In this document: one piece after another, positions 1-24,823 of the stretch | Position numbering within the stretch: the stretch's first letter is position 1 | How the letters are laid out: every line of letters begins with the position of its first letter | Origin: a virus | Direction: 5' to 3' (one strand) | Length of the DNA stretch: 25,897 nt | Virus record (IMG/VR): IMGVR_UViG_3300037264_006822 | Coordinates: 1 to 25,897 of that record | Program-made: the position numbers and the translations under genes | The notes under the pieces: model-generated | Database searches by the model: none | The model's input: the letters and a program-made list of their open reading frames with translations, nothing else | What the model was told of the DNA's origin: nothing

Positions 1-2
1 TA

Positions 3-1887: not shown

Positions 1888-1894
1888 TGTCTTT

Positions 1895-1912
1895 AGATAC
1901 GAGACTGTATCT
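1895..1912. promoter_or_regulatory. Inverted repeat between divergent helicase and gp47 genes
   Basis: AGATAC (1895-1900) and GTATCT (1907-1912) form a perfect 6-base inverted repeat around a 6-base spacer, inside the 34-base gap between the helicase start (1887) and the gp47 start (1922). It could be an operator for both genes. Short repeats like this also arise by chance, so this is only a candidate. Confidence 0.25.
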
Positions 1913-1921
1913 GATGTGGAT

Positions 1922-2998: not shown

Positions 2999-4782
2999 TC
3001 GCCATTGAGTCCGTTGAAATCGCCAATTTCATGAGCTACGGGGAGCCTCCCGTCAAGTTGCAGCTTAGAGGTCTTGGTCCCACGCTAATCGTCGGTGAAA
3101 ATGCCGGCGATGAAGAGGGTAGTTCAAACGGGAGCGGCAAGTCGTCTCTGGCTGCGGCTATTCTATGGTGTCTGTTCGGTCGGACGATAGGGAAGGACCG
3201 TCCTGGCGACGCCATCGTGAATTGGTTCAACGGCAAGGATTGCTTCGTTAAGATCGAAGTAGGCGACTATGCGATCACGCGGAGTAGGCGATTGAAGGGC
3301 TCTCCAGAACTTATTATTCAGAAAAGCGGCAAGGACATTAGTGCATCTACAACGGAGAATGCACAAAAACAGTTACTTAGGTTATTCAATCTGGACTACG
3401 AGATTTTCGTTTCTAGCGTATTCTTCGGGCAGCTTGGTCGGTCATTCCTGGAATTGCCTGATGCCCGGAGGCGTTCCATTCTGGAGCGTGTGTTTAACCT
3501 CCACCGCTTGAATGTCTGGGCGGAAGTGGCGAAGGAGAAGCTGGTTGGTCTGGAGTTGAGCGTAGCTCAGCTCGCTGCCGAGTGCGCGGCGAATGAATCA
3601 GAACTAACAAGGCTTCGTGCTGACCTCGCATTGAAGCGGCGTCTGGAGACTGATTACGAAGGACGTCGTATAGATAGGCGCGATGCAGCTCTTCAAAGAC
3701 GACAGACGTATGAAACAGAACTTCGGCAGATAGCCGTGCCTAACATACCAGAAATCAAGCGGCAATGGGAAGTTGTAACGAAGATCAAACAGAAGCTGAT
3801 GGAGTATGAAGCGCAGTTGACGGAACGGACCGCGGGGGCCATGAGTCTCAAGCGTGACATAGGCAGCATAAATGAGGAAGAGAAGCGGTGGAAGGCTAAG
3901 GCGGGGACGATGTGTCCGTCTTGTCAGCAGTCCATTGCGCGAGAACATGTCCTTAATGTCTGCGCCCCCTTTGATGAGCGCCGGAAGCTAATTCAGAATC
4001 AGATTACCCGTCTTGAACAGGAAGCTACTGCTATCCGTACGGTTACGGAAAATACGTCCGCCAAAGTGTCTGCGGCTGGTCCACAAATGAGCTTGAAGGA
4101 GGCAGAGGCCATTGTGCGCGATGCGGCGAGGTTGCGAGATCAGATCCAGCAAGTCGATCGTGATGTAGAAACGATTATGGAAGAGGATAACCCATACGGC
4201 AGTCAGTCAGCTGAAAAGTCTATGTCAGATCGTGATGCGGTTATCACCGGTATCAAAAAACGGATCGAGGACCTTAATCTGCTAGTAAGACATATTTCTT
4301 ACCTTCATTCGGCATATAGCGACAAGAAAAAGCTTAAAAGCTTTCTATTGTCTGACCTCATTCCGTTCTTGAATGAGCGCGTCGTATACTATCTTAAGGC
4401 TTTTGATTGTGATTTCGACATGAAGTTCGATGCGACGTTGAAGGACGTAACGAGTCGATGGGACTATGAATTATGCTCGGGTGGGGAACGCAAGCGGATA
4501 GATCTGGCTGTCATGTTTGCATTTTATGACCTTTATGTTGCCATTTATGGCCCGCAGTGTAACGTCATCGTGCTCGATGAAGTGGATGGGCGCCTGGATC
4601 CGAGTGGGGTGCAGGCATTCGTAGACATCATAGATCGCGACTTCACGAGTAAATCTGGACAGAAGAATAGGCCAGATGCAGTGCTCATCATCTCACACAA
4701 GGACGAGATGCGAGACGCTTTCCCATCTAAAATCAAGGTCGTGAAGGATGGGAACATCTCCCGAATCGTGGAGGTCAGATAG
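2995..4782 (+). CDS. Recombination endonuclease subunit, gp46/SbcC/Rad50-like ATPase
   Basis: ABC-type ATPase partner of gp47. The 595-aa protein has the Rad50/SbcC layout. Walker A (NGSGKSS) is at residues 45-51. A first coiled coil (about 180-300) leads to a zinc hook CPSC at 307-310, and a second coiled coil follows (about 330-450). The ABC signature CSGGERKR lies near 494, Walker B plus D-loop (VIVLDEVDGRLD) near 525-535, and a switch His (IISHKDE) follows. The coiled coil is short compared with bacterial SbcC (about 1,000 aa) and similar to T4 gp46 (560 aa). The product should dimerise through the hook and couple ATP hydrolysis to gp47 nuclease activity. The start overlaps the gp47 stop by four bases. 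Confidence 0.95.
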   Translation: MIAIESVEIANFMSYGEPPVKLQLRGLGPTLIVGENAGDEEGSSNGSGKSSLAAAILWCLFGRTIGKDRPGDAIVNWFNGKDCFVKIEVGDYAITRSRRLKGSPELIIQKSGKDISASTTENAQKQLLRLFNLDYEIFVSSVFFGQLGRSFLELPDARRRSILERVFNLHRLNVWAEVAKEKLVGLELSVAQLAAECAANESELTRLRADLALKRRLETDYEGRRIDRRDAALQRRQTYETELRQIAVPNIPEIKRQWEVVTKIKQKLMEYEAQLTERTAGAMSLKRDIGSINEEEKRWKAKAGTMCPSCQQSIAREHVLNVCAPFDERRKLIQNQITRLEQEATAIRTVTENTSAKVSAAGPQMSLKEAEAIVRDAARLRDQIQQVDRDVETIMEEDNPYGSQSAEKSMSDRDAVITGIKKRIEDLNLLVRHISYLHSAYSDKKKLKSFLLSDLIPFLNERVVYYLKAFDCDFDMKFDATLKDVTSRWDYELCSGGERKRIDLAVMFAFYDLYVAIYGPQCNVIVLDEVDGRLDPSGVQAFVDIIDRDFTSKSGQKNRPDAVLIISHKDEMRDAFPSKIKVVKDGNISRIVEVR

Positions 4783-4785
4783 ATT

Positions 4786-4795
4786 CAAAAGTAGA
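4786..4795 (+). promoter_or_regulatory. CAAAAGTAGA element before a start lacking a Shine-Dalgarno (copy 1)
   Basis: The ten bases CAAAAGTAGA end two bases before the GTG start at 4798. The identical ten bases recur at 13169-13178, again just ahead of a start (ATG 13181) with no purine-rich ribosome binding site. Its function is unknown: it could be a promoter -10 region or a translation-initiation element. Confidence 0.3.
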
Positions 4796-4797
4796 TT

Positions 4798-5310
4798 GTG
4801 GATACGAATACCATCGATCGAATCAGACAGCTCATCATCAACGAATACGCTGCTAGACTATTGGTAAAATATTTCATAGAGAAGGGATTTAAAGACAGTT
4901 TCAACATCCACGTCTATCCGCCAGGTATCCAAGATTTACCTCAGCGCGTTCCAGCTCTCGCAGATAAAGTAGAGATCGAACCATACGTGGAGAGTATCAA
5001 TCCAAACGAGGGTATGGTCAAGCTCGGGTGGAACTTATTCGTAACTGGAAATCGCAGGATGTTTCTTGGCGAGACGTGCCATCGAGAATTAACTGAACTT
5101 AGGAGCGGTAGTATGACGGCGCCTAGTGGCACAGTCGTGCGGCTGGTTGCGACACCGAAGAAGATTATCGAGTTTATTTCAAATGTCCTGATGGACCATC
5201 GAGAGATGATCCAACCATCCATTTCTACAATTCCGCGGCTGCCGTCAGCCAGACCCAGAATCGGACCACTCTGGAGTGGTGGTTATTACGAGAAGCGACG
5301 TGGGAGGTGA
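4798..5310 (+). CDS. Hypothetical protein, 170 aa
   Basis: No family recognised. The protein looks like a compact mixed alpha/beta domain with an N-terminal helix (IDRIRQLIINEYAARLLVKY) and a basic, proline-containing C-terminal tail ending in KRRGR, which might touch nucleic acid or a partner. Translation must begin at the GTG at 4798, because a TAG lies two codons upstream in frame and the next in-frame ATG would remove about half of the protein. No Shine-Dalgarno precedes it; the CAAAAGTAGA element does. It follows gp46 by 15 bases and overlaps the region of the next small gene's ribosome binding site, so it probably belongs to the gp47-gp46 transcript. Confidence 0.75.
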   Translation: MDTNTIDRIRQLIINEYAARLLVKYFIEKGFKDSFNIHVYPPGIQDLPQRVPALADKVEIEPYVESINPNEGMVKLGWNLFVTGNRRMFLGETCHRELTELRSGSMTAPSGTVVRLVATPKKIIEFISNVLMDHREMIQPSISTIPRLPSARPRIGPLWSGGYYEKRRGR

Positions 5311-5312
5311 TG

Positions 5313-5483
5313 ATGGCAGCCAGCGCAAAAGCTCTCGTCGATTTGAGAATGATGGTAGAGATTAGACATGCAGAGGAAGCGCTCCAGAAGGTAGGAGTCA
5401 GATTGGAATTGAAGCAGGAAATAAAGACCGACGAATCTAACGTCGAGCAATTCGGCGTAATGGGCGTGAGAGATCTGAGTTAG
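5313..5483 (+). CDS. Small hypothetical protein, 56 aa
   Basis: A short gene with a good ribosome binding site (GGGAGG at 5302-5307) ahead of tandem ATGs at 5310 and 5313; the second has the better spacing. The first ATG overlaps the preceding stop. The product is largely helical and charged (AKALVDLRMMVEIRHAEEAL, then a Lys/Glu-rich stretch), with no membrane segment or recognisable motif. Its TAG overlaps the end of the convergent minus-strand gene by four bases. The strong ribosome binding site and exact fit between neighbours support it as real; its function is unknown. Confidence 0.6.
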   Translation: MAASAKALVDLRMMVEIRHAEEALQKVGVRLELKQEIKTDESNVEQFGVMGVRDLS

Positions 5484-6490
5484 CCTTCCACACCGAGCCT
5501 CATCGCCAGACATTGCGCCCGCAGCAACTCAAAGATCTTAGCGATCTCCTTAGGTGTCTTTTTGAGAAATCGCCCGATGGTGCTCTGGCACAAATCGTCT
5601 CCGTGTTTCTCGACGTACTCAGGCGGCGGCGAGACCATAATATCCAGAGCCTGCTGCGCGTCAGTAGGCAAATTAGTACGCATCACACGGATGCTGTCAT
5701 CGAATTTCTGGTGATCTTCTGCTGCGATACCCTTCGTACAGGCAAGCTTGTATTCGAGTTTGTAACGCACGCCATCACTATTGTCGCTTTGGTCGCCAGA
5801 TTCGAAGCTCACCATTTTGATGTTCGTAGTCAAGGGCATTTGCGCTTCGACGATTTTCACCTGATCGGCGATGATATGGACGCTGTTGCACTGCTTCCCG
5901 AAATAGAGCAGCTTCAAGCCGTAACGACGCAGGAACCTATGAATCTTCCACAGCTTTGGGAGGGCAGTAGCGGGAAGACGCATGACCTCGGCATTGATGA
6001 TGACATAACGGTTTGATTTCTGTACGATCCCGCCGATGAAGACGTTATAATCCCCGAGAAAATTGAGAATCATTTGTTTGGCCAATTCTGTGTTTAGGCC
6101 AGTGACCGTTTGGGTACTTCGGACGCGCGCCGGCTTGTTTTCGTTCAGGATCTGCCTGAGCGAATTGAAGATCCATTCCTGATAGAACTTTTTCCTTTGT
6201 TTTGGATTTTCTATGACTTCTGGCATCGGCTTGTGATATAACGCGGAGACAGTGGCCCGCCACACGGCCATAGCGACTTCTTGCATGGCAAATGATGGGT
6301 CCTTGTACTCGTTCCCGATGGTATTGGCAAGAGCCGTGATAAAAGCCTGGCGGGCCGGCTGTAGAAGCGGGTCCTGAAGGACCTGCTCCAGTACGTCACC
6401 AACCTTCTTCCGCTGCTCAGGAGATAACGATCGCATCGTGACGTTGCAGATCGAGCCCCGGAGGTAAAGACGAGCGATCTGGGATGCCAT
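5480..6490 (-). CDS. Hypothetical protein, 336 aa; possible divergent sigma-like factor
   Basis: No confident family assignment. Residues about 63-115 show a pattern reminiscent of sigma-factor region 2 (QEVAMAVWRA, then FYQEWIFNSLRQILNENKP, like the helix that binds core polymerase and the -10 strand). The last 50 residues (STIGRFLKKTPKEIAKIFEL) could form a helix-turn-helix like region 4. The middle (about 140-260) is an unknown alpha/beta segment. The ATG at 6490 has a good upstream GAGGGG. It is transcribed away from the gp55-like sigma gene across a 74-base gap, a location that suits a transcription or replication regulator. It could equally be an unrelated helical DNA-binding protein; the sigma link is an inference from pattern only. 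Confidence 0.8.
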   Translation of the reverse strand: MASQIARLYLRGSICNVTMRSLSPEQRKKVGDVLEQVLQDPLLQPARQAFITALANTIGNEYKDPSFAMQEVAMAVWRATVSALYHKPMPEVIENPKQRKKFYQEWIFNSLRQILNENKPARVRSTQTVTGLNTELAKQMILNFLGDYNVFIGGIVQKSNRYVIINAEVMRLPATALPKLWKIHRFLRRYGLKLLYFGKQCNSVHIIADQVKIVEAQMPLTTNIKMVSFESGDQSDNSDGVRYKLEYKLACTKGIAAEDHQKFDDSIRVMRTNLPTDAQQALDIMVSPPPEYVEKHGDDLCQSTIGRFLKKTPKEIAKIFELLRAQCLAMRLGVEG

Positions 6491-6509
6491 ATTCCCCTCG
6501 AATTATGAG

Positions 6510-6519
6510 TACCATGGTA
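6510..6519. promoter_or_regulatory. Palindrome TACCATGGTA in divergent intergenic region
   Basis: A perfect 10-base palindrome lies inside the 74-base gap (6491-6564) between the divergent 336-aa gene and the gp55-like gene, where promoters for both must lie. It might be an operator. No clear -10/-35 pair can be chosen by eye around it. Confidence 0.25.
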
Positions 6520-6564
6520 ATCTTTAGTTGTATGAGACGTATCTTATTTGATGGAGGTAATTCC

Positions 6565-7002
6565 ATGCCGTATGCGGACACGAAAGAACTGAAAGCTGCT
6601 TGGTATGAATGGTCGAAGACTCAGGACCCGGTTGCTTGGGACCGGCTAGCGGACGGCGTATACAAGATCTGCTGCGGAGTTGCGACGAAATTTCATCCGC
6701 AGACGGAAGAAGAGAAGCTTGAATTAGCACATCATGCCTTTGCGCTGACGTTGGGTAAGATCAGAAACGGGGTGCTGTGGGATAATGGCCGTACCCCTGT
6801 GTTCAACTTGTTTACGACTGCGATCTTCAACTGCCTCTTTTCGTTGAAAATGACGGAGAAGCGACGGCGAAGCAAGCTTGTAAGATACACCCAGCAGGCT
6901 CTTGAAAATCTTCCGCAACACATGAGGAGCGATCCTTTGCAGCACGCGAGTGGCGGCGAAAGTACGATTAAAACAGGCAAATCAAAGCTTGTCAAGTATT
7001 GA
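6565..7002 (+). CDS. gp55-like late-transcription sigma factor
   Basis: Probable phage sigma factor related to T4 gp55, which redirects host RNA polymerase core to late promoters. The 145-aa protein resembles sigma region 2: a first helix pair (residues about 12-45), an acidic EEEKLELAHHAFALTLGKI segment (48-66), then RTPVFNLFTTAIFNCLFSL followed by basic KMTEKRRR (76-103). The latter matches the gp55-type pattern of a glycine/aromatic turn, FxTTxxxN and a Lys/Arg cluster. T4 gp55 is 185 aa, so this one is short. The start is the ATG at 6565 with GGAGGT at 6553-6558, not the upstream in-frame ATGs. Odd: SKLVRY (104-109) is echoed by SKLVKY at the extreme C-terminus, where gp55 normally carries its sliding-clamp-binding peptide. 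Confidence 0.7.
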   Translation: MPYADTKELKAAWYEWSKTQDPVAWDRLADGVYKICCGVATKFHPQTEEEKLELAHHAFALTLGKIRNGVLWDNGRTPVFNLFTTAIFNCLFSLKMTEKRRRSKLVRYTQQALENLPQHMRSDPLQHASGGESTIKTGKSKLVKY

Positions 7003-7027
7003 CCGATCAAAATTCGCATGGAAACCC

Positions 7028-7291
7028 ATGATTTACGTAAGGCTTGTTACTAGATTCGTTCGTGCGTTATTTAGTCGCGAGGTTGCGTTGAGCGTCCTCA
7101 AGGATGCGCGACCTGACGATTTGTTCAATATCGTTGCTAAAAAGACGAAGGAGAGCATGCTCATTTATGTGACGAGCGATTCCAACGTCACCATGTACGT
7201 CAAAATGGATAGCATCCGATCGCGCTCTGTGTTGGCGGGCGTGCTGCCCAAGATCGCGAGTGATGCACTCAGGTTGCGAGCGACGACGTAA
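7028..7291 (+). CDS. Hypothetical protein, 87 aa
   Basis: No family recognised. It is a small basic protein (MIYVRLVTRFVRALFS at the N-terminus) followed by a beta-rich stretch (MLIYVTSDSNVTMYVKMDSI) and a C-terminal helix. The ATG at 7028 is favoured because an upstream ATG at 6950 would run inside the sigma-like gene; a weak TGGAAA precedes 7028. The stop overlaps the next start as TAATG, so it is probably co-translated with the DUF115-like gene. Function unknown. Confidence 0.6.
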   Translation: MIYVRLVTRFVRALFSREVALSVLKDARPDDLFNIVAKKTKESMLIYVTSDSNVTMYVKMDSIRSRSVLAGVLPKIASDALRLRATT

Positions 7292-8301
7292 TGCCGACTG
7301 TAATGCATTATCGGTTATCGGCTCGTCCAGGCATACAAAAAACTGGCATAACGATCGTCATTCCGCGTCCAGTCAAGTTCGCTATCACTAACCGGCCGGC
7401 GCTTGTTCAAGGCAAAATTGCCACCCAAAAACCACCCGCACCAAAACCTGCTCCAAAACCATCTACGCCGACGCTAGACAGACCGCGGCTTGTTCCACAG
7501 ATGATGAGGCCACCTAACGTCGGTAAGGTGACCATCATTACTCAAAACGCGCGGCGCCAAGCCAGAAATCATGTACGCCCGAGCCCATTGGTGCATATAG
7601 CCAAAGAAAGGGAGAGGCAGCTTTCAGCATCGCGTGGTGCGATTCAATCTTTGAAGCGGGTAGGGCATGGTCGCATCCTCGTAATAATCGGCAATGGCCC
7701 TTCCGTTTCTGAGGCGCCCCTGGAGAAGCTCAAAGGACATCCGAAGATCGACGCTATGAGCATCAACAAACCAGACCGACGTCTGTGGCCGACGCGTTTC
7801 TGGTGCTTCACTGACCAGAACCAATATGGCCGCAATAAAGAATTCTGGGACAATTACTCTGGGATGGTCGTCAATTCTGGCTCTGTACGTGAGCGTCGCC
7901 AGAATCAAGTACTCGTCCGTAATCTTTCCGGCATTGGCTTCTCGCGCGATTTGGCTAATGGATTTTATATTGGGCGGTCGAGCGTCTTTGCGGCTATGCA
8001 AGTTGCGTATTGGATGGATTATATGAAGGTCTACATTTTTGGCGTAGATATGACAGCTGTTAATGGGAAACTTCATTTCTACGGTCAGAATCCGGACGTA
8101 AACAATAAGATTAGGGTGACTAGATTTAAAGGAGAAGCAGAAAGCTTCATGTATGCTGCAAAGACGCTCAGTGACGGCGAAAGGGAGAAATTTATTTTCT
8201 GTTCATCATATAATCCATGGCCTTTTGTGAGCCGTTTCAGTAGATTGGATCAGAAGCTGGCGATCGACGAAATCTTGAAGACCGCGGGCAAAAGTAATTA
8301 G
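7291..8301 (+). CDS. DUF115/MAF-like protein (possible glycosyltransferase)
   Basis: The C-terminal two thirds (about residues 127-330) resemble the DUF115 / motility-accessory-factor (MAF) fold, often annotated in phages as 'norphogenetic protein'. The Rossmann-like start ILVIIGNGPSVSE is at about 128-140, and later segments (INKPDRRLW, FWCFTDQN, KVYIFGVDMT) look like the family's core strands. MAF proteins in flagellated bacteria transfer nonulosonic acids to flagellin, and some phage relatives are thought to modify surface sugars; the substrate here is unknown. The N-terminal 120 residues form a separate low-complexity basic region with a Pro/Lys/Ala linker (PPAPKPAPKPSTPT near 48-61), perhaps a flexible tether. 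It starts in a TAATG overlap with the preceding gene. Confidence 0.65.
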   Translation: MPTVMHYRLSARPGIQKTGITIVIPRPVKFAITNRPALVQGKIATQKPPAPKPAPKPSTPTLDRPRLVPQMMRPPNVGKVTIITQNARRQARNHVRPSPLVHIAKERERQLSASRGAIQSLKRVGHGRILVIIGNGPSVSEAPLEKLKGHPKIDAMSINKPDRRLWPTRFWCFTDQNQYGRNKEFWDNYSGMVVNSGSVRERRQNQVLVRNLSGIGFSRDLANGFYIGRSSVFAAMQVAYWMDYMKVYIFGVDMTAVNGKLHFYGQNPDVNNKIRVTRFKGEAESFMYAAKTLSDGEREKFIFCSSYNPWPFVSRFSRLDQKLAIDEILKTAGKSN

Positions 8302-8309
8302 GAGGAAAT

Positions 8310-8489
8310 ATGGCAGAGCATCCAACGCCGGACAAGCCAGCCGATACAGCCGCGAAGCTGTCACAGAAGGGCGCACACGGCGGTGGGAATCGGTTCTTTC
8401 AGATGACCATTCGTGACGCTTTTGACATACACAAGCGAAATCAGCAGCCGAACATCGAGCAGCACATCAGTAAGCCCAAAGGGTCGTGA
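8310..8489 (+). CDS. Small hypothetical protein, 59 aa
   Basis: A short gene with a strong ribosome binding site (GGAGGA at 8301-8306) and ATG at 8310. The product is hydrophilic and probably disordered at the N-terminus (MAEHPTPDKPADTAAKLSQK), with a glycine turn (GAHGGGNRFF) and a helical middle (QMTIRDAFDIHKR). No signal peptide or membrane segment is visible. It starts eight bases after the DUF115-like gene and lies 15 bases ahead of the deoxyribosyltransferase-like gene. Real by its ribosome binding site and position; function unknown. Confidence 0.65.
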   Translation: MAEHPTPDKPADTAAKLSQKGAHGGGNRFFQMTIRDAFDIHKRNQQPNIEQHISKPKGS

Positions 8490-8504
8490 TGTATCTGACG
8501 ACTT

Positions 8505-9080
8505 ATGGGTCTTCTCTCTTCTACAACATGCTATCTCTGTGGGCCTGTTGAAGCTGCCCAGGATGCTGCCGGCTGGCGGAATGACATCGGCGCCAAACTC
8601 GCACGTATGCGGGTCTTATGTTATGATCCACTAAAGAAACCGAAATGGGTTGGACAAAAAGGCCTTCTGCCGCAGGCAGACATCACAAATGGCATCCTTG
8701 GTAGAGGCCCAATACCCGTACAAGATGCGATTGACGCACAAGTTTTATCCAGAACTGTTTGTTTGAGACTGGTTAGTGCAGCGGACTGGGTCATCTGTCG
8801 GATGCCCAAGACGTTTACTGTCGGTACGATAGAAGAATTGCACATCGCATATCAGCGCGGTTGTCCGACGTTTTTTATCTGTCCAGATGGCATCCCTTCG
8901 GCCTGGTTAATTTCGATGTTCGCGCCATCTGCCAAAGACATCCCTGATGTGTTTCATGAGACGTCAGATAGTCTATTTGAGTATCTAAATAAGATAGACA
9001 CAGGTGTTGATTTAGATCCTCTACGATGGATCTTTCTCGCCTGGACTGGAGGAAAATATGATACCCAAACTCGAACCTGA
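8505..9080 (+). CDS. Nucleoside 2-deoxyribosyltransferase-like protein
   Basis: Looks like the nucleoside 2-deoxyribosyltransferase family, which cleaves or exchanges the base of 2'-deoxynucleosides or dNMPs. The N-terminal strand and loop CYLCGPVEAA with W24-R25 match the family's YLAGP...W/R signature. The segment ADWVICRMP leads into GTIEELHIAYQRG, where Glu111 occupies the position of the catalytic nucleophile in the GTxxE motif. Length (191 aa) is slightly above the usual 140-165. In-frame upstream codons reach a TGA at 8496-8498, so the ATG at 8505 is the earliest possible start, though its ribosome binding site is poor. It overlaps the DeoC-like gene by 23 bases; the two enzymes' chemistry (deoxyribosyl transfer, deoxyribose-phosphate aldol cleavage) fits one salvage route. 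Confidence 0.7.
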   Translation: MGLLSSTTCYLCGPVEAAQDAAGWRNDIGAKLARMRVLCYDPLKKPKWVGQKGLLPQADITNGILGRGPIPVQDAIDAQVLSRTVCLRLVSAADWVICRMPKTFTVGTIEELHIAYQRGCPTFFICPDGIPSAWLISMFAPSAKDIPDVFHETSDSLFEYLNKIDTGVDLDPLRWIFLAWTGGKYDTQTRT

Positions 9081-9837
9081 CTTGCAGGCTGGTAATGTCC
9101 GTGAAGCTATTCAAGCCGGAATGTTCGCTCTCAAGCACAGATGCCAGGCAATCATAGCTGCTCCGGCTCTGGTATCGTCTCTATTGACGGATAAGGCTGT
9201 ACGTGGCGGGCAGTTTAATGTCATCGCCGCGATCGATTTTCCGAACGGCAGAAATTTTGCGCTGGATAAATGGAAGGACGTAGGCAAGGAAGTTCTATCG
9301 GCCGATGGATTTGAAGTTATGCTTAGCATGGGCAGACTCCCTGCTGAGTGCCGGAACGAAATTCGCATCGTTACGGAGTTCATCAAGGGCCAGATTAACC
9401 CACTGGCAGAAATGCGGTTCGTTTTGCGCGTATTTGATCGTACACAGGCGGAAATCGAAGAGTGTCTGAAGGGAATCGCAGCATATCCTCCTGCAATGAT
9501 CCGTCTCGACCATCGTACGTCTGCTCCAAACACCATTATTGATCTGAAAAAGCAAATCGAAGCCATTACTCTTATACGCAAGCATGTAGCAACCCCCATT
9601 AAGGTCAGTGGCAATTTAGATTTCCAGGCACTGAAAGAGCTATCTAACATTCAAAAGGTGCATAGATTCGGCGTGTCTATGTCACAAGCCAGAGAAATAG
9701 TAAACGCGGTGAGAAAGGAAGAAGAAAAACCGCGGGGGAAAGCGACAGAATCAGTTCCATCTGCATCGTCTACCCCTGCAGCGCCGAATGGCACGCTGGG
9801 TCTTGAGCAGGGTCAGCTTGGTAAAGAAGTAACATAG
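9058..9837 (+). CDS. DeoC-like (deoxyribose-phosphate aldolase fold) protein, key lysine replaced
   Basis: The 259-aa protein resembles class I deoxyribose-phosphate aldolase (DeoC), a TIM barrel. Visible elements are VIAAIDFPNG (about residues 59-68, cf. the DeoC FPxG turn), DGFEVMLSMGRL, and PAMIRLDHRTSAPN followed by ATPIKVSGNLDF. In my by-eye alignment the second lysine of DeoC (E. coli Lys201) is kept as Lys182, but the Schiff-base lysine (E. coli Lys167) is Arg149. The activity may therefore be lost or changed. The last 40 residues are Ala/Ser/Pro-rich and probably disordered. The start has GGAGGAAAA directly upstream, inside the preceding gene. Other class I aldolase relatives remain possible. 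Confidence 0.6.
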   Translation: MIPKLEPDLQAGNVREAIQAGMFALKHRCQAIIAAPALVSSLLTDKAVRGGQFNVIAAIDFPNGRNFALDKWKDVGKEVLSADGFEVMLSMGRLPAECRNEIRIVTEFIKGQINPLAEMRFVLRVFDRTQAEIEECLKGIAAYPPAMIRLDHRTSAPNTIIDLKKQIEAITLIRKHVATPIKVSGNLDFQALKELSNIQKVHRFGVSMSQAREIVNAVRKEEEKPRGKATESVPSASSTPAAPNGTLGLEQGQLGKEVT

Positions 9838-9846
9838 GAGATCGCC

Positions 9847-10137
9847 ATGGATCTTATGCCGCTCTATGATCGCGTCGTGTTAGAGCCTGTTGCGCCGGAA
9901 GATAAATCCCCAGGTGGAATCGTTATTCCAGAGATGTCTAAGGGGGGTGAGAGATTCCGACATGGGAAAGTGCTGTCTATTGGGCAGGGCCGTATTGATG
10001 GCGGTAAGACATGGCCCATGACAGTGAAAGTCGGTGACGTCGTTCTCTTCAATTTTCATGCAAGCGCGCAGGTCAAACTCGGCGACAAAGAGGTCGCGAT
10101 CCTGGCAGAGAAGGACATCCTGGCCATCGTCAAATAG
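9847..10137 (+). CDS. groES: GroES-like co-chaperonin
   Basis: A 96-aa co-chaperonin of the GroES/Cpn10 family. It has the N-terminal strand PLYDRVVLEPVAPE, the mobile-loop flank GGIVIPE (about residues 23-29) that contacts the GroEL apical domain, the KVGDVVLFN strand pair, and the terminal EKDILAIV strand. Length matches cellular GroES (97 aa), whereas T4 gp31 (111 aa) is more divergent. In T4, gp31 replaces GroES so that host GroEL can fold the major capsid protein; this protein may serve a similar role. No GroEL gene is in the window. GGAG lies nine bases upstream of the ATG. It sits among nucleotide-metabolism genes. Confidence 0.95.
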   Translation: MDLMPLYDRVVLEPVAPEDKSPGGIVIPEMSKGGERFRHGKVLSIGQGRIDGGKTWPMTVKVGDVVLFNFHASAQVKLGDKEVAILAEKDILAIVK

Positions 10138-10141
10138 GCTT

Positions 10142-11389
10142 ATGAACACCAATTTCGTCTTTACGCCTGGCACGCTGACCACCATTTTAGATGCGCAAGC
10201 CGGCTCGTCCGGCAAGGGCAAGGTCGGATCATTTATTGCTCAACATGCCGATAATTGGCAGTTTGCGTGCCATGCATTCTTTCCACAAGCCGGTCATTGG
10301 GTAAAATTAGATGACGGACGGTCATTCTTCTATCAGACGTTCAACAGCTGCGCCTATCAGATCGATCGATACGAGAAGCTTTATATAGGCCCAGGGGCTA
10401 TTTTAGAGCTTCCAGCCCTATTTCGTGAGCTAGAAGAGAACAGAATTCCACGCCACAAAATTGGCATAAGCCCATTAGCTGCTATTTTACAGGACATAGA
10501 TGTCGGATATGAGCGCGGGACATGTGACTTCGATGGTCAGCCAGTCTCGGAACTGCATGATGGTACGATGAAACGTGGCAGCACCGCACATGGTGCCGGT
10601 GCGTGCCGTGCACGGCGTGTACTGCGTCGGCCGGAGAAGCTTTACGCGAGGGACGTACCAGAGCTTAAGGAATTCATTTGTGATGTGCCTGGCGAAATTC
10701 TTAGTCGTCTAGAACGGCATCAAGCTGGGCTGTTGGAAATAGCGCAAGGATTTCAACTATCATACCTTCTGCCGCATATGTTCCCATATACGACGAGTAG
10801 GAACTGTACCGTCGCTGCTGCATTAGACGACATGATGTTGCCTACATGGTGCGTCGGCGATGTTATTTTAAATGTTCGCACGTTTCCGATCAGAATAAAC
10901 AACAATAAATACCTCGGTCAGGATGGGAGGCATTTGTCGTGGGAAGAAGTCCAACAGTTCGATAGAGAAGGCAAGCCATATAATGTCTACGAAGGGAATA
11001 GCGGACCTGGATACCCAGACCAGAAGGAAATTACGTGGGATGAAGTAACAACCTTGTCTGGATCTCCGGACAAGATCATGGAGATTACAAGCGTAACTAA
11101 GCTTCCACGTCGCGTGTTTACATTCTCCAAGCAGAACCTACGAGAAGCCATCCGACATAATAATACAGGTCGGCAGACATATATTTCCCTCAATTTCATC
11201 AATTATGCCGATCATGCAATGACTGGTCGCCGTGGCACGGTTGAATCATGTTACAGTGATCCGGACGGACTTATTACACAGAAAGCTCGACAGTGGATTG
11301 AAGAAAACATCCAAGTGTGGCCACACGCAAAATTGAAGTTCCTGGGCACCGGTCCGTTGACCGATGATATGATCGTTTCGGAACCATAA
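10142..11389 (+). CDS. Adenylosuccinate synthetase family protein, PurZ-like active site
   Basis: PurA-family ligase of 415 aa. PurA joins IMP and aspartate using GTP; phage PurZ uses dGMP to start 2-aminoadenine (Z) nucleotide synthesis. The GTP loop reads AQAGSSGKGK (residues 18-27) where PurA has AQWGDEGKGK, so the PurA catalytic Asp13 is Ser22. An Asp-to-Ser change at this place is reported for PurZ enzymes. His52 (QAGHW) corresponds to PurA catalytic His41. Further matches are YIGPGAILELPAL, RGSTAHGAGACRA, FPYTTSRNCT and FLGTGPLTDDMI. The start is the ATG at 10142, four bases after groES. Whether the product is PurA, PurZ or a third activity cannot be settled by eye. No datZ or mazZ is visible in this window. 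Confidence 0.88.
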   Translation: MNTNFVFTPGTLTTILDAQAGSSGKGKVGSFIAQHADNWQFACHAFFPQAGHWVKLDDGRSFFYQTFNSCAYQIDRYEKLYIGPGAILELPALFRELEENRIPRHKIGISPLAAILQDIDVGYERGTCDFDGQPVSELHDGTMKRGSTAHGAGACRARRVLRRPEKLYARDVPELKEFICDVPGEILSRLERHQAGLLEIAQGFQLSYLLPHMFPYTTSRNCTVAAALDDMMLPTWCVGDVILNVRTFPIRINNNKYLGQDGRHLSWEEVQQFDREGKPYNVYEGNSGPGYPDQKEITWDEVTTLSGSPDKIMEITSVTKLPRRVFTFSKQNLREAIRHNNTGRQTYISLNFINYADHAMTGRRGTVESCYSDPDGLITQKARQWIEENIQVWPHAKLKFLGTGPLTDDMIVSEP

Positions 11390-11400
11390 GGAGAATGTCG

Positions 11401-11679
11401 ATGGCTAAGCCGAACGGCAAGACGAAGGGCGTGGCGAAGTTTATGGCTCCCGTGAAGGTGGATGATCTTCTGGCGGCAGTCGTGGGTCCAGAGCCCAAAC
11501 CGCGGACGGAGATCACCAAAAAACTCTGGGATTATATCAAGAAGAATAACCTTCAGGACAAGGTCAAGAGGCAGAACATCAACGCGGACGACAAGCTGAA
11601 GGCCGTATTCGGCGGCAAACAGACGGTCTCGATGTTCGAAATGACGAAGCTGGTGAATGGACATATCATCAAAGGATGA
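11401..11679 (+). CDS. SWIB-domain protein
   Basis: A 92-aa protein that is almost entirely one SWIB domain: RTEITKKLWDYIKKNNLQDK (a near-consensus first half, about residues 39-58), KRQNINADDKLKAVFGGK and VSMFEMTKLVNGHI. SWIB (SWI/SNF complex B / MDM2) domains occur in eukaryotic chromatin remodellers and in some bacteria, such as Chlamydiae, stand-alone or fused to topoisomerase I. The role is usually protein-protein contact near DNA. Here the short basic N-terminus (MAKPNGKTKG) could bind DNA. The ATG at 11401 is preferred over 11395 because AAGGAG ends at 11393. It overlaps the next gene as ATGA. Function in a phage is unknown. Confidence 0.9.
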   Translation: MAKPNGKTKGVAKFMAPVKVDDLLAAVVGPEPKPRTEITKKLWDYIKKNNLQDKVKRQNINADDKLKAVFGGKQTVSMFEMTKLVNGHIIKG

Positions 11680-12086
11680 AGGCAATCCTTCAGACTAACG
11701 TCACGGTGGATCGTCCTACTTCTACGGGTAGGATATTCACGCGGGCGGCTGTGGAAAGAGCTTTAGTTGATCCGGCCTTGCGCAACCGGCTGAGGCGCGG
11801 GATGATCGGCGGGTTGCTTAACCGTGATGGCGACAGAATTGCGGCGATCGACGAGCCGACTCATCTAGTTACGGACATAAAACTAGATCAGGATGGGAAT
11901 ATCGTCGTTGAATTGGACATCCTAGACACTCCAGCAGGTAAGCGTGTCCAAGAAGCCGCCTTGAATGGGAAGAAATTGATCGCCAAGCCTATCATTGTAG
12001 TGCCTGACGATCAACCGACGGCAGAATCAACCACAATAGACTGTCCGATATCATTCCATAAAGTGCAAATCGAGTTCGCCCCATGA
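11676..12086 (+). CDS. Small prohead-protease-like (gp21-type) domain protein, apparently inactive
   Basis: The 136-aa sequence follows the pattern of T4 gp21-type prohead proteases: a first strand ([11 protein letters not shown]), [15 protein letters not shown] (cf. NGRxYPxxxLExxV), [19 protein letters not shown] and [20 protein letters not shown]. It is much shorter than gp21 (about 210 aa). Where active enzymes have GELxHP with the catalytic His, this one reads GGLLNRDGD, and where they have a Ser-Ser-Arg motif it reads IAKPI. If the alignment is right, the domain is not a protease and may be a structural or binding relic. It overlaps both neighbours as ATGA and lies among nucleotide-metabolism genes, away from visible capsid genes. 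The assignment is by pattern only. Confidence 0.5.
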
Positions 12087-12631
12087 GCTTTTCATTATTG
12101 TCTGATCGTGACATTGAGTGCCTGGAATTCATAGAGAATTTCGAATCCGGCACGAAAAGACCGGGCATCATTTCATTTGGTCTCAGTTCGTACGGCTACG
12201 ACATTCGAATAGCAGACCGCTTTAAGATTTTTACCAATATCAATGGTTCTATTATAGATCCAAAGGCCATTGACGAAAAGTGTTTCTCTGATTTCAAGGG
12301 CGATATATGTGTCGTGCCGCCTAATTCTTACGTCCTTGGGGAAAGCATCGAGCGCTTTAATATGCCGCAGGATGTCATCGGTATTTGCCTGGGTAAGAGT
12401 ACCTACGCGAGGGCAGGCATCGCCGTCAATTGTACGCCAATCGAGCCAGGTTTTAAGGGCACAATTGTTGTGGAGGTCATCAATGCTACTCCGCTGCCAG
12501 CGAAGATTTATGCCGGCGAAGGAATAGCGCAGATCGTGTTCTTCCGCGGCCGGCGTCCGCTTGTAACGTACGCAGATAAGCGCGGCAAGTACCAGGACCA
12601 ATCCGGTATCGTCACTTCTCGTGTTGATTGA
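12083..12631 (+). CDS. dcd: dCTP deaminase (Dcd/DUT family)
   Basis: Predicted dCTP deaminase, converting dCTP to dUTP on the way to dTTP; the fold is shared with trimeric dUTPase. The 182-aa length is close to E. coli Dcd (193 aa). Conserved parts are SYGYDIRIA (about residues 35-43), the [10 protein letters not shown] motif (Lys105-Ser106 and following) corresponding to the RSSxAR nucleotide-binding motif, and [12 protein letters not shown] with Glu131 at the position of the catalytic Glu. The first Arg of RSSxAR is Lys here. The C-terminal part ([12 protein letters not shown]) resembles the flexible lid. A bifunctional dCTP deaminase/dUTPase cannot be excluded. It starts in an ATGA overlap with the previous gene and ends the nucleotide-metabolism run. 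Confidence 0.9.
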
Positions 12632-12653
12632 CCTAACGTCTGTGCATATCCGC

Positions 12654-12666
12654 GCAAAAATAGCAT
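12654..12666 (+). promoter_or_regulatory. Candidate phage promoter motif GCAAAAATAGCAT
   Basis: This 13-base sequence differs by one base from GCAAATATAGCAT at 21141-21153. Each lies in a short intergenic gap just ahead of a GC-rich, well-initiated gene (12700 and the tail sheath at 21175), 33 and 21 bases before the ATG. It is flanked here by GTCTGT (12638-12643) and ACAGAC (12678-12683), an inverted repeat. The AT-rich core could be the -10 region of a late promoter; its use is inferred. Confidence 0.4.
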
Positions 12667-12699
12667 TGACGGATTTTACAGACATTAGGAGACAGTACG

Positions 12700-13095
12700 A
12701 TGGCCGAGCAGCCCGCTCTGAGCAACGTTTCGATCTTCCGGACGGTGAGGGCGTATCGCGGTGAGGAGCTCCGGCATGACGCGATCAAGCCGATCACGCA
12801 TAAGATGCGCGGCCTGGTCGTGAGCGTTCCTGCGCGTGAGGTTCTGGTGCAGGAGACGCGGAACGCGTCTCTATCGGATGCCTTCCGTTTTGGTCATCCG
12901 GTTGTTCGGCACCTGCGTTCTGTCTGCACGCTAGATGACGTTACGAGCGGCGTCAGTGGTCTGGAATTCCCGACCAGGATCGGCCGCGACGTCTTCCTTG
13001 CCAAGGACGAGAACAACCTTGCCGACGATCTCCATCAGGAGGTCCGGGAGACCTGCGGCGTGGACGCCGACGCCAGCCTCGTGGGTGGCGTGTAA
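12700..13095 (+). CDS. Hypothetical protein, 131 aa, GC-rich, own expression cassette
   Basis: No family recognised. The protein is mixed alpha/beta with no signal peptide or membrane segment; the N-terminus is SNVSIFRTVRAYRGEELRHD and the C-terminal half (FPTRIGRDVFLAKDENNLAD) is acidic. The gene is clearly richer in G+C at third positions than its neighbours, like the tail sheath gene and unlike most others here. It has AGGAG about eight bases before the ATG, a candidate promoter upstream and a strong hairpin downstream. In phages this combination usually marks an abundant product such as a head decoration or other virion protein. That is an inference from expression signals, not from sequence similarity. 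Confidence 0.75.
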   Translation: MAEQPALSNVSIFRTVRAYRGEELRHDAIKPITHKMRGLVVSVPAREVLVQETRNASLSDAFRFGHPVVRHLRSVCTLDDVTSGVSGLEFPTRIGRDVFLAKDENNLADDLHQEVRETCGVDADASLVGGV

Positions 13096-13125
13096 GGTCG
13101 CGTGACGTACAATTGCGACAAGTAA

Positions 13126-13155
13126 GACGACCCCAGGGGCAACTCTGGGGTCGTC
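13126..13155 (+). terminator. Strong hairpin, probable terminator after the 131-aa gene
   Basis: GACGACCCCAG (13126-13136) pairs perfectly with CTGGGGTCGTC (13145-13155) around an 8-base loop, giving an 11-bp GC-rich stem 31 bases after the stop codon at 13095. No T-run follows (CTGTATCC), so it may terminate weakly or act as an mRNA-stabilising or processing structure. The next gene starts only 25 bases later. Confidence 0.65.
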
Positions 13156-13168
13156 CTGTATCCGGACG

Positions 13169-13178
13169 CAAAAGTAGA
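13169..13178 (+). promoter_or_regulatory. CAAAAGTAGA element before a start lacking a Shine-Dalgarno (copy 2)
   Basis: Identical in all ten bases to 4786-4795 and, as there, ends two bases before a start codon (ATG 13181) with no other ribosome binding site. It directly follows the terminator-like hairpin, where a new promoter would be expected. Function unknown. Confidence 0.3.
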
Positions 13179-13180
13179 AC

Positions 13181-13579
13181 ATGGATGAGTTCGAGACCAA
13201 ACTCGACGCCGTCTTCGCCGTTATTGTGCCGCAGACGCAGGTTCAGACACAGAAGCCGAAGGCGATCTGGGTTGATTTCGATGGTACTCTAACCAGTGAT
13301 CCGCCATCGCGAGACCCGCTGTGTCAGGCGCCAAGAGAGGATGTAGTCGGTGCTATCAGGCAACTCAAGCAACAGTGTCTGGCACTGAACGTCATTGTAT
13401 TCACCGCACGCCCTTGGGCTGATATGATGGGTATAAAGGAATGGTTGGACGCCCATTGCGTGCCTTATGACAGCGTCGTCTGTGGCAAGCCAAGCGTCAA
13501 TGCCTGCATCGACAACATCTCGGTCAATCCTTGTCTCCCAGGTTGGCAGCAGCAATTGAATCATTTGTTGGGACTCTGA
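13181..13579 (+). CDS. HAD-superfamily phosphatase
   Basis: A 132-aa haloacid-dehalogenase-fold hydrolase, probably a phosphatase. Motif I is D32-F-D34-G-T (WVDFDGTLTS), motif II is VFTARPW with Thr75, and motifs III/IV are Lys103 (CGKPSVNA) with an acidic D111 (CIDN). Asp32 would be the nucleophile and Asp34 the acid/base. The short, capless layout resembles small phage and bacterial phosphatases of unknown substrate, which may act on nucleotides, sugar phosphates or polynucleotide ends. The N-terminal 25 residues are a Gln/Thr-rich extension. No Shine-Dalgarno is visible. It is followed after one base by the next ATG, so the two genes probably form a transcription unit. Confidence 0.85.
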   Translation: MDEFETKLDAVFAVIVPQTQVQTQKPKAIWVDFDGTLTSDPPSRDPLCQAPREDVVGAIRQLKQQCLALNVIVFTARPWADMMGIKEWLDAHCVPYDSVVCGKPSVNACIDNISVNPCLPGWQQQLNHLLGL

Positions 13580-13580
13580 T

Positions 13581-14567
13581 ATGCATAAATCCGTCCGATC
13601 GATCATGTATGAATATGTCTATGAGTCGGATTTCGAACGGCTTTTGTCGGCTATTTTATTAGAGGAGACGATATCGCTTGCGGATTGGCAGGCCGGCAAG
13701 AGGGTGAGGATCGTTAAAGATAAGGAAGTCGTCGACGATTTTTCGCAGGATGAAACAGGCCAGCAAGCCGGGCGTGAATTAGTTCTTCGTTCGGACGAGT
13801 TTAGGCGTGCTGGAGGCGGAGAGAGCATCTCCAAGCAGCAGTTCATCCTCCTGCCGACTGAATCGTTAGATTCGGGAGGGATGTCTCACGTACTGGCTTA
13901 TGTTGAGGAACAGTTGCATGATAAAGGCAATATTGCGCTGCGTGGTTGGCCAGGCTTCGGTATTGAAGGTGCAGCCTACCCAGCGGCATGGCTTAAGGCT
14001 CTTCCTACTGGTTATCAAGAGCAAGTAAAGCGACAGGAACAGCTTGGCAACGCGTGGATCGTTTATGAAATTGATGGTGTGCCGTTGGCTGAGGTTTTAC
14101 GCCGGCCTGTCCTGCGTCCGGTCGGACATAAACGAGAACAATGGTATGAAGAATTAGTCGATTATATCCGCCAGGCGAAGGAGGCTGACAAGACACTTAG
14201 TGTGGAATATGTACCCGCCCGTATTAAGCGATTTGCGGGGGATCTCGCCATTACGGGGCAGGGAGATGCTGTCCTCATCGTCTCACATGAAAAGTCTAAA
14301 GCCGCCTATATCGTCAAGAAGAAGATGGATGTAGATGGCGAGATGTATGACTGGGACGATGCGATGGAAATGAAGATGAATGAATTCGTCGACAAGAAAC
14401 ACGAATCACAGACGCAGGCGAAACTTCTCTTCCGTCAGTGGGTACAGGAAACCAGCAACGGATGTGGTATGCGCCGCGACTTCCATGTCACTGATATCGG
14501 ATTAATTCTCGATGCTGGAGTGAGTTATAATACTGCTCTCGAGCTCGGTGCCTGCGACAAATCATAG
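13581..14567 (+). CDS. Hypothetical protein, 328 aa
   Basis: No family recognised. The protein is hydrophilic and mixed alpha/beta. The N-terminus (MYEYVYESDFERLLSAILLEE) is predicted to be helical and is followed by an acidic linker with DDFSQDETGQQ. A middle segment is glycine/proline-rich (LRGWPGFGIEGAAYPAAWL), and near residues 230-260 lies a beta-rich part (GDAVLIVSHEKSKAAYIVKKK). No catalytic motif is evident. The ATG at 13581 follows the HAD gene's stop by one base; an in-frame ATG at 13608 is an alternative. The gene ends convergently with the ClpS-like cluster, overlapping it by six bases. Interaction with DNA or with the phosphatase next door would only be guesses. Confidence 0.8.
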   Translation: MHKSVRSIMYEYVYESDFERLLSAILLEETISLADWQAGKRVRIVKDKEVVDDFSQDETGQQAGRELVLRSDEFRRAGGGESISKQQFILLPTESLDSGGMSHVLAYVEEQLHDKGNIALRGWPGFGIEGAAYPAAWLKALPTGYQEQVKRQEQLGNAWIVYEIDGVPLAEVLRRPVLRPVGHKREQWYEELVDYIRQAKEADKTLSVEYVPARIKRFAGDLAITGQGDAVLIVSHEKSKAAYIVKKKMDVDGEMYDWDDAMEMKMNEFVDKKHESQTQAKLLFRQWVQETSNGCGMRRDFHVTDIGLILDAGVSYNTALELGACDKS

Positions 14568-15041
14568 CGGTCGTACGTCATGCCCGCGCATCAGAATCTC
14601 CTCTCCATGCCTTTTGCAATACCATGTCCGAATTCCGCTTTCTGGATTTTGTTCGGTGAAAGCAACGGGATCATGACAAGCCTGATCGGGCCATGACTTG
14701 CAGATGGCACAAGGACCGGTATCGAACGTCGTAATACATGTCGGACCGATACCACGCTTATCATGCTCCAGGGTGACGTGGAAACCGAAAATAAAATATT
14801 GTGAAATCAGGAACGCATAGTGTTCTGCCGGCTCGAATGGTCCAATATATACGGCGCACCTATTACGCTTGATCTTGGCGACCATTTCTTCGCAGCGGTG
14901 TCCATCCCAATGAAAGATGTCTGCCAACATGCGATGGATGCGGGCTGAAGTGTTGAGGCGCGTCGGGTCATCATGCACCACGACGCAGGCCCGCTGCGAT
15001 TTCTGGGTCGGTAAATGGTGGATGTGATAAAAATCAGGCAT
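14562..15041 (-). CDS. ClpS-like adaptor with C-terminal Cys/His putative zinc-binding tail (paralogue 2)
   Basis: The 159-aa protein has a region (about residues 17-95) resembling ClpS, the adaptor that delivers N-degron substrates to ClpAP: CVVVHDDPTR (ClpS VNDDxTP; His23-Asp24-Asp25), a helix ending in FHWD, PFEPAEHYAFLISQY (cf. the ClpS AE helix) and FHVTLEHD (last strand). ClpS Asp35/Asp36 are kept as Asp24/Asp25. The VHxxG histidine of ClpS, which binds the substrate amino group, is not obvious here. The tail adds C111-x2-C114 and C142-x2-H145, a likely zinc site. It overlaps the upstream paralogue by eight bases. It lacks the conserved Gly of VHxxG, so it is the more divergent copy. 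Function is inferred from fold only. Confidence 0.65.
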   Translation of the reverse strand: MPDFYHIHHLPTQKSQRACVVVHDDPTRLNTSARIHRMLADIFHWDGHRCEEMVAKIKRNRCAVYIGPFEPAEHYAFLISQYFIFGFHVTLEHDKRGIGPTCITTFDTGPCAICKSWPDQACHDPVAFTEQNPESGIRTWYCKRHGEEILMRGHDVRPL

Positions 15042-15489
15042 TGGCGATTGTCCAGAAATCTTTCATGCCGAGTAACCATTTGGCATGGCTTTCGCAAAAC
15101 CAATATCTGAGTTGGCCATCAGTAGTTGCGCGGACCTCAGAGTGCGTGATGAGTCCTGCACATTTTGGGCATTCATTCACAAAGAAGCGATCTGAAACGT
15201 GGCTTATGAAACATGGCCCCTCATCATAGGTCTTTATAATACCAGGCTTGAGGGGCACTAGTGATATTTTGAAACCGAATGCGCCCCATTTTGACATTGC
15301 TATTGCGAAGTACTCTGCCGGCTCAAATGGCAATGTCATGACATCTCGCATGCCACTTTTATCGACAATGACCTCACATTCGGCCGCGTCGAGATGTAGT
15401 ATCTTCTGTAATGCCTCGATCATTTCGTCTCTGGTATGAAAGCGCTCTGGGTCGTCATGAAGGCGTAGGTGATAGAGATTCGGCTCCAT
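15034..15489 (-). CDS. ClpS-like adaptor with C-terminal Cys/His putative zinc-binding tail (paralogue 1)
   Basis: The 151-aa protein reads like ClpS over residues 5-82: YHLRLHDDPERF (Asp12-Asp13 as in ClpS NDD), EMIEALQKILHLDAAECEVI (cf. VLQKFFxxDxxxA), VDKSG (43-46, ClpS VHxxG with His replaced by Asp), PFEPAEYFAIAMSKWG (cf. the ClpS AExxxAxV helix) and FKISLVP. The tail has C107-x2-C110 and C132-x2-H135, spaced like the zinc site of its neighbour. The ATG at 15489 has GGAGAC upstream; an earlier in-frame ATG (15516) has none and lies in the operator-like repeat. Both minus-strand genes interrupt a run of plus-strand genes, suggesting separate acquisition or regulation. A role in redirecting or blocking host ClpAP is an inference. 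Confidence 0.7.
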   Translation of the reverse strand: MEPNLYHLRLHDDPERFHTRDEMIEALQKILHLDAAECEVIVDKSGMRDVMTLPFEPAEYFAIAMSKWGAFGFKISLVPLKPGIIKTYDEGPCFISHVSDRFFVNECPKCAGLITHSEVRATTDGQLRYWFCESHAKWLLGMKDFWTIANA

Positions 15490-15503
15490 ATAGTCTCCAT
15501 TTT

Positions 15504-15518
15504 TATTGTAACACAATA
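15504..15518. promoter_or_regulatory. Inverted repeat TATTGT-N3-ACAATA in divergent promoter region
   Basis: A 6-base perfect inverted repeat with a 3-base spacer lies in the 72-base gap between the ClpS-like operon (start 15489) and the divergent gene at 15562. The position and symmetry suit a dimeric repressor's operator. No -35/-10 pair is certain. Confidence 0.4.
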
Positions 15519-15561
15519 CCAGTCAGACGTCAATTATGGTCAAAACTATCATGGAGGATAT

Positions 15562-16089
15562 ATGACACGCCTATCCACAGATCCGCTCGTTCCAAATCCG
15601 GCCGGCGCCGAATATGGTGAGTTCTCTACTTTTACCGTCTTTGCGCGTGTCGAACCACATTTGGGATTCGGTCGTCGGTTCGATATGGTCAGGGATCTTG
15701 AAAAAATCGCTAATCGAGTAGAAGAAGCACTAAAAGACTCGAGTGGCAGCTTCGGAGTAGACATCTGTGTACCAGGCCCCGTGATGTTTACGCATCAGTT
15801 CGGACAAAAACCGGCCAGGCTTACGATTACTGGTTTCATGCAGAGCGACAAACCTGTTCGATCGCCGGTGACGGACAGAACAATCGATCATGACAATGCG
15901 GTACAGACGGGTCCATCAGCGACGGGCGGAAATCTTCGCGATGGTACGGCCCCAACGGCAGATGAAGATGCTGATGTTAAGCTTCTGAAGCAGACGCTGG
16001 AGGCTATGTCGTCAGATCTACAGAACATCTTCCGGATCGAATTAAATGGGGTCCTGTACGGCGAAAACGGCAGAAGCTTCCCCTTGTAA
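15562..16089 (+). CDS. Hypothetical protein, 175 aa
   Basis: No family recognised. It begins the virion-gene run that leads to gp13, so it may be a structural or assembly protein. The middle (FSTFTVFARVEPHLGFGRRF, then VDICVPGPVMFTHQFG) looks like a small beta-rich domain. It is followed by a Thr/Gly/Asp-rich, probably disordered stretch (about 110-140) and a C-terminal helix (VKLLKQTLEAMSSDLQNIF). The ATG at 15562 has GGAGG at 15553-15557; the longer upstream frame has no ribosome binding site. The 64-base gap after it is C/T-rich and holds no clear terminator. Confidence 0.7.
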   Translation: MTRLSTDPLVPNPAGAEYGEFSTFTVFARVEPHLGFGRRFDMVRDLEKIANRVEEALKDSSGSFGVDICVPGPVMFTHQFGQKPARLTITGFMQSDKPVRSPVTDRTIDHDNAVQTGPSATGGNLRDGTAPTADEDADVKLLKQTLEAMSSDLQNIFRIELNGVLYGENGRSFPL

Positions 16090-24148: not shown

Positions 24149-24823
24149 ATGTTTTATCCATATACTATCATCGGCCATAGTCAAATGCTTGGAGATATTA
24201 TTGATGCCATCGCCGCAGTTAATGGATATGTGAGCCGGGTTGTTCAGAATGCGGAAGACAGACCAAGGAAAGGCGAACTTACCCTTCGAGAGCGCGTCTC
24301 TCAGATAAGATATGGCGTCAATATTCAGTCGATTGATGAATTTAATCCGTCGCCAGATGAAAGGTATGTCCTAGGTGTTGGTGGTGGGCGCCTTGCATTT
24401 CGGAAGACCATCCAGCAGATTCAATCCAAATTTGGTATCGCATTTACTAGCCTCGTACATCCGTCTGCTATAATATCCCCTGCGGCGACTATCCATGAGG
24501 GAGTATTTGTCGGCGCCGGCTGTGTTATTGCGTCCGGTGCGAATCTTGCGCCATTTTCCATGATGAATAGAGCGTCAAGTCTTGGTCATGATAGCAAGCT
24601 TGGTACATACGCTGTGATACAGCCTGGCGCTCATGTGGGAGGATATGTTACTATCGGTACTGGTGCCACGGTAGGCCTCGGCGCGAGCGTCATTGAGCGG
24701 ATTTCAGTTGGCGATGGGGCGTTTGTGGCAGCGGGAGCGGTAGTCATTCAGGACGTACCAGATCACGCGCTTGTTGCCGGAATCCCAGCCAAAGTAAAGA
24801 AATACAAAGAAATCCTTACATGA
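24149..24823 (+). CDS. PglD/NeuD-family sugar O/N-acyltransferase
   Basis: Acyltransferase with an N-terminal Rossmann-like nucleotide-sugar domain (residues 1-~95; YTIIGHSQMLGDI and YVLGVGGGRLAFR) and a C-terminal left-handed beta-helix of hexapeptide repeats (about 100-210; e.g. IHEGVFVGAGCVIASGANLA). His147 in SLGHDSKLG matches the catalytic His of PglD (NxxxxxHD). PglD acetylates the 4-amino group of UDP-sugars, and NeuD-type relatives act in sialic acid O-acetylation. Length (224 aa) is typical. The next gene, a DegT-type aminotransferase, overlaps by four bases. Such pairs make N-acylated amino sugars in bacteria; the substrate here is not known. It follows the sheath terminator by 18 bases. 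Confidence 0.88.
   Translation: MFYPYTIIGHSQMLGDIIDAIAAVNGYVSRVVQNAEDRPRKGELTLRERVSQIRYGVNIQSIDEFNPSPDERYVLGVGGGRLAFRKTIQQIQSKFGIAFTSLVHPSAIISPAATIHEGVFVGAGCVIASGANLAPFSMMNRASSLGHDSKLGTYAVIQPGAHVGGYVTIGTGATVGLGASVIERISVGDGAFVAAGAVVIQDVPDHALVAGIPAKVKKYKEILT

Follow-up and report, generated by a model that had tools for sequence, protein, structure and literature searches.

This locus raises the question of what two adjacent ClpS-like proteins with Cys/His tails would do in a tailed phage. ClpS is a bacterial protein that passes tagged proteins to the cellular shredder, and a phage may jam or redirect this host machinery by means of such a ClpS-like pair. The window, that is, the whole stretch of DNA analysed here, is a 25,897-base IMG/VR virus record. 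This fragment of a myophage genome encodes a T4-type tail sheath protein, SbcC/SbcD-like nuclease subunits and a helicase. The gene pair, its signals and the borders of the slot in which it resides are as follows:

12700..13095, plus strand: conserved flanking gene, left border of the slot
14562..15041, minus strand: P0001, 159 aa, with a predicted ClpS-like core (aa 17-94) and a Cys/His tail
15034..15041, minus strand: 8-base overlap of the P0002 and P0001 genes, ATGCCTGA
15034..15489, minus strand: P0002, 151 aa, with a predicted ClpS-like core (aa 4-80) and a Cys/His tail (aa 91-151)
15495..15498, minus strand: ribosome-binding site GGAG ahead of the ATG at 15489, as read from the sequence
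15505..15533, minus strand: sigma70-type promoter-like site TTGACG-17-TACAAT, near-consensus (10/12 match)
15550..16089, plus strand: conserved flanking gene, right border of the slot

The two adjacent homologous minus-strand reading frames described in the original prediction are both in place, share 33% identity over 140 aa (E value of 2e-19 in a single pairwise comparison), and sit among plus-strand genes. To that description can be added that they form an overlapping two-gene unit, convergent with the gene at 13581-14567, in which the 3′ end of the P0001 gene lies 6 bases deep; the 8-base overlap of the pair suggests translational coupling. The promoter-like site, located 15 bases upstream of the P0002 ATG, is the sole 10/12 sigma70 match in positions 14400-15700, and a control stretch (positions 1-13000) has 9/12 sites only, not above chance. 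Its proximity to the ATG would leave a leader of merely ∼10 nt.

A third family member was recovered from relatives fetched via the tail sheath gene. It is encoded at positions 3709-4170, minus strand, of a related 107-kb contig (referred to as L005), where it is present as a single copy and occupies the same slot on the same strand, between homologues of 12700-13095 and 15550-16089; a promoter-like site, TTGACG-17-TATACT, is found upstream of it (4225-4197). By score, P0002 is closer to the L005 protein than to P0001 (83.6 versus 66.6 bits), whereas by alignment identity it is closer to P0001 (37% versus 31%). Since the gene and the promoter-like site are both conserved despite this divergence, chance ORFs are very unlikely. 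The neighbourhood search for homologous pairs in other phages, suggested along with the original prediction, yielded this single homologue in the same slot but no second pair.

Other contents of the slot in the window are a HAD-like gene (13181-13579) and a gene for a 328-aa protein (13581-14567). Among 80 loci fetched via the head-tail adaptor gene, both flanks were detected in 39, some of these being overlapping copies of one contig, and the slot there is often empty (∼100-210 bases between matches) or carries other cargo. Apart from L005, the ClpS-like gene is absent from the slot of all relatives obtained in this way. With the slot empty or otherwise filled in relatives, the ClpS-like genes are therefore accessory cargo of a variable slot. 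The other cargo, as named by eye, includes a ThyX-like thymidylate synthase as well as endonuclease-like and other genes, and counterparts of the variable slot 12700-16089, whose conserved flanking genes belong to the virion region, occur in loci L041, L044, L052, L065, and L101.

Searches for further members found the family nowhere else. PHROGs and PADLOC had no matches for P0001 or P0002, NCBIfam gave irrelevant weak matches only, and protein searches of 50,697 phage records and sequence searches of the PDB produced only chance-level matches. When IMG/VR was pattern-scanned using the proteins and three alignments, the L005 contig alone was returned; scans of this kind depend on short peptides being conserved, so that distant members may escape them. 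There was no copy in a scan of bacterial genome contigs, nor any hit in a profile search, run without a positive control, of 398 genomes from the phylum of E. coli.

The sequence signals that assign the cores of these proteins to ClpS are weak singly and, in our view, convincing together. ClpS (PF02617) is the best Pfam match for P0002 (E value of 0.0021) and P0001 (0.01), but the respective scores, 18.3 and 16 bits, lie below the gathering cut-off of 23 bits; when the window was searched with the ClpS profile, P0002 was detected at an E value of 2.1e-5. In profile-profile comparisons by hhalign, the three-member family matched a small ClpS alignment with a P value of 1.4e-5 and a broader one with 3.1e-5, ranking first among 229 families (runner-up, 0.0028), which were taken unselected from ORFs of the same phage loci and served as the null; different handling of the family alignment changed the value to 1.3e-4. 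The ClpS identity put forward originally thus falls short of the Pfam cut-off. Against a bacterial-only ClpS profile the link is almost gone (P of 0.078) and therefore runs via divergent phage ClpS. A narrow proteobacterial ClpS HMM detected neither protein, and a broader home-made one found P0002 merely at an E value of 3, so evidence from single-sequence HMM searches is not relied on here.

Structure prediction agrees with the ClpS assignment. The layout described in the original prediction (His-Asp-Asp after the first strand, a long helix, Pro-Phe-Glu-Pro-Ala-Glu at the start of helix 3, and a last strand) can be recognized both in the sequence and in the AlphaFold2 models of the two proteins, which share one three-row alignment and are therefore not independent of each other. 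The modelled cores (pLDDT of ∼64-88) have the order strand-helix-helix-strand-helix-strand, and in Foldseek searches both match solved ClpS structures best: ClpS chains take all PDB ranks from 1 to 35 for P0002 and from 1 to 31 for P0001, with TM scores, normalized by target length, of up to 0.84 and 0.89, respectively. Identity of the models to cellular ClpS is 12-19%; the top viral structure match is the ClpS of phage Atu_ph07.

The substrate pocket of ClpS includes Asn34, Met40, and His66. Equivalents of all three are replaced in all three family members, with one or two acidic residues left near Asp35/36 in a register that varies with the aligner; judged from these alignments, the N-degron pocket is degraded throughout the family. 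The loss of the His that binds the substrate amino group, noted in the original prediction, holds for every member, but the identity of the replacing residue (Asp in P0002, Lys in P0001, and Ile in L005) depends on the alignment. During delivery, the N-terminal extension of ClpS enters the channel of ClpA (PMC9663308). This extension is nearly missing from P0002 and the L005 protein, where ∼4-6 residues precede the first strand; P0001 has ∼16. In E. coli ClpS, Glu79, Glu82, and Lys84 contact ClpA (PMC12493166). Both glutamates have a Glu equivalent in every family member (E56/E59 in P0002, E70/E73 in P0001, and E61/E64 in L005); these residues belong to a P-[FL]-E-x-x-E motif and are among the few invariant ones. 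Lys84 is replaced by Phe, Tyr, or Leu; it is likewise missing from Leptospira ClpS1 (PMC12493166).

The C-x2-C...C-x2-H tail was correctly recognized from the start as an element present in both proteins and foreign to bacterial ClpS: the 30 bacterial ClpS proteins compared stop 0-10 aa past the core and have no such tail, which in this family extends over ∼60 aa. Nor is there one in any of eleven ClpS-type proteins taken from phage records, a set that may include bacterial DNA. The ligands would be C107, C110, C132, and H135 in P0002 and C111, C114, C142, and H145 in P0001. A Cx2C-x(10-40)-W[YF]-Cx2H pattern is common to all three members, and when 2,639 phage ORFs with lengths of 100-350 aa were examined, no further family had its W[YFW] form; the looser Cx2C...Cx2H arrangement occurs in 0.3-2.4% of shuffled versions of each protein. 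The tail motif is conserved as strongly as the core. In the P0001 model, the tail (pLDDT of ∼50-72) consists of a knuckle, a hairpin (126-131/138-142), and a helix (143-156) that starts from C142-x2-H145; having the last two ligands at a helix start suggests a resemblance to treble-clef fingers. In P0002, the pLDDT of the tail is below 50. A zinc site is accordingly a prediction for both proteins, made from the motif and one model of modest confidence. Weak Pfam matches of the tails to PHD and FdhE were put down to Cys/His spacing only.

From the sequences and models we infer that zinc is bound, that the proteins dock and displace ClpS, and that there may be a client, and combine these points in the following reading, which we prefer but hold tentatively, its chances being slightly below even: the pocket-poor, zinc-tailed ClpS-like pair docks on host ClpA or ClpC and displaces ClpS, while the tail binds another partner. 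The two genes would make up a small unit of the phage, served by a host-type promoter-like site of its own. The ClpS-like core would dock at the ClpS site on the N-terminal domain of ClpA or ClpC, and displacement of host ClpS would alter N-degron and other N-domain-dependent proteolysis in the course of infection. The zinc tail would bind a different protein and either deliver it to the protease or hold the complex. The invariance of the glutamates where the pocket is lost offers one specific support for docking, and the combination of retained docking glutamates, lost pocket and extension, and a new tail fits an occupant of the Clp N-domain that does not read N-degrons. Displacement of host ClpS is the least that such an occupant would be predicted to cause, and conservation of the tail predicts a second partner. 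Counting against this reading are the loss of Lys84, the below-cut-off Pfam scores, the P value of 0.078 with bacterial ClpS alone, the lack of any encoded Clp N-domain protein in the ten virus records tested, and the short leader. The earlier idea that the pair binds ClpA or ClpC and blocks or re-specifies N-degron proteolysis remains plausible on these sequence data. A more elaborate version, which we consider doubtful, is that these are paired ClpS mimics that have kept the docking face and dropped N-degron reading, with the zinc finger picking clients, such as defence proteins, and host ClpS being shut off. If true, this version would mean that the host protease is turned against chosen host proteins, making the pair a new kind of phage Clp adaptor.

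Other explanations were weighed as well. The C-terminal domain of ribosomal protein bL12 belongs to the same fold class as ClpS, and bL12 chains do appear among the structure matches (rank 47 for P0002 and rank 32 for P0001), which would make the core a bL12-like domain acting on translation. This is very improbable: ClpS chains hold better ranks, the bL12 Pfam profile (PF00542) has no match, and hhalign against bL12 gives a P value of 0.56, so the bL12 identity was rejected. Alternatively, the ClpS-like fold might have been reused as a general binding module unconnected with Clp, leaving the zinc tail as the working part, which would bind, for example, nucleic acid or a host protein. The loss of the pocket and Lys84, the low identity to cellular ClpS, and a tail motif conserved no less than the core speak for this. 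Against it stands that the residues aligning with the ClpA-contacting Glu79 and Glu82 belong to the few invariant ones, and we regard it as unlikely.

The pair could also consist of true N-recognins, i.e., adaptors of altered specificity that hand proteins with particular N-terminal residues over to the protease of the host; delivery of this kind has been proposed for jumbo-phage ClpS (PMC7824862). An acidic pair (D12/D13 and D24/D25) does lie near the position of ClpS Asn34-Asp36 in both window proteins, and Atu_ph07 ClpS likewise has His-Asp-Asp there; however, equivalents of His66 and Met40 are absent from all three members, the L005 protein has Arg-Pro-Asp, and the N-terminal extension is nearly missing in two of the three, making this distinctly improbable. 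Much the same holds for a client-free antagonist pair, with one protein on the Clp N-domain and the other on host ClpS or another partner in an anti-proteolysis role: the overlapping genes, their unequal divergence, and the near lack of an N-terminal extension in P0002 would suit it, but the related phage has a single copy on its contig and the conserved tail suggests a bound partner.

ClpS has been known from jumbo phages (PMC7824862, PMC6102473). Like the window pair, the jumbo-phage proteins (PA5oct, Atu_ph07, and Phosso) have a ClpS-like core in a tailed phage, and it is the ClpS profile including them that matches the window family. Unlike the pair, they are encoded by single genes, keep most of the N-D-D...T-P-M residues and an N-terminal extension of up to ∼20 aa, and, in those compared, have no Cys/His tail. 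In the literature searched, we found no test of the proposal that jumbo-phage ClpS feeds targets to host ClpAP. The RaK2/GAP32-type phage proteins of 177-179 aa (GAP32_314, Kaldavass, and RaK2 H6X3W1) share a degraded-pocket ClpS core with the window pair, but their extra parts are without the Cys/His motif and their docking helix keeps Y-T-Y-E-[IL]-A-H. Bacterial ClpS (PF02617) has the fold order and the Glu79/Glu82 equivalents in common with the pair, which differs by its low identity, the loss of the pocket and Lys84, and the gain of the zinc-type tail. In eukaryotic UBR E3 ligases, a zinc domain (the UBR box) and a ClpS-like N-domain are likewise combined in one protein, but the motif of the UBR box is different, the box precedes the ClpS-like domain, and no sequence link between these ligases and the window pair was found. 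The pocket-degraded, zinc-tailed, tandem form of ClpS appears to be undescribed within the libraries and literature searched. With a natural ClpS that has the docking residues but not the pocket, one could ask directly if N-degron proteolysis is jammed by phages or reprogrammed.

Several other genes of this myophage deserve mention. A phage-encoded GroES (Cpn10, E value of 2.9e-23) is found at 9847-10137 on the plus strand; the fragment shows no GroEL. Adjoining it, and a dCTP deaminase gene, is a homologue of the PurZ-like succino-amino-deoxyadenylate synthase (10139-11389, plus strand), with GSSGKGK in place of the GDEGKGK of PurA; it matches NCBIfam PurZ at an E value of 3.4e-42, but under the cut-off of that model, and PHROG 1211 at 3.6e-32. 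Judging from this gene, the phage may carry diaminopurine DNA. The products of three plus-strand genes, a weakly matched sialyltransferase/WaaZ-like protein (7291-8301), a NeuD-like acetyltransferase (24149-24823), and a PseC-like aminotransferase (24820-25896), suggest phage-made sugar decoration. Finally, in the related locus L007, the head-tail adaptor homologue (1849-2979) is interrupted by an in-frame intein-like insertion of ∼120 aa (2163-2527) that ends in VVHNS.
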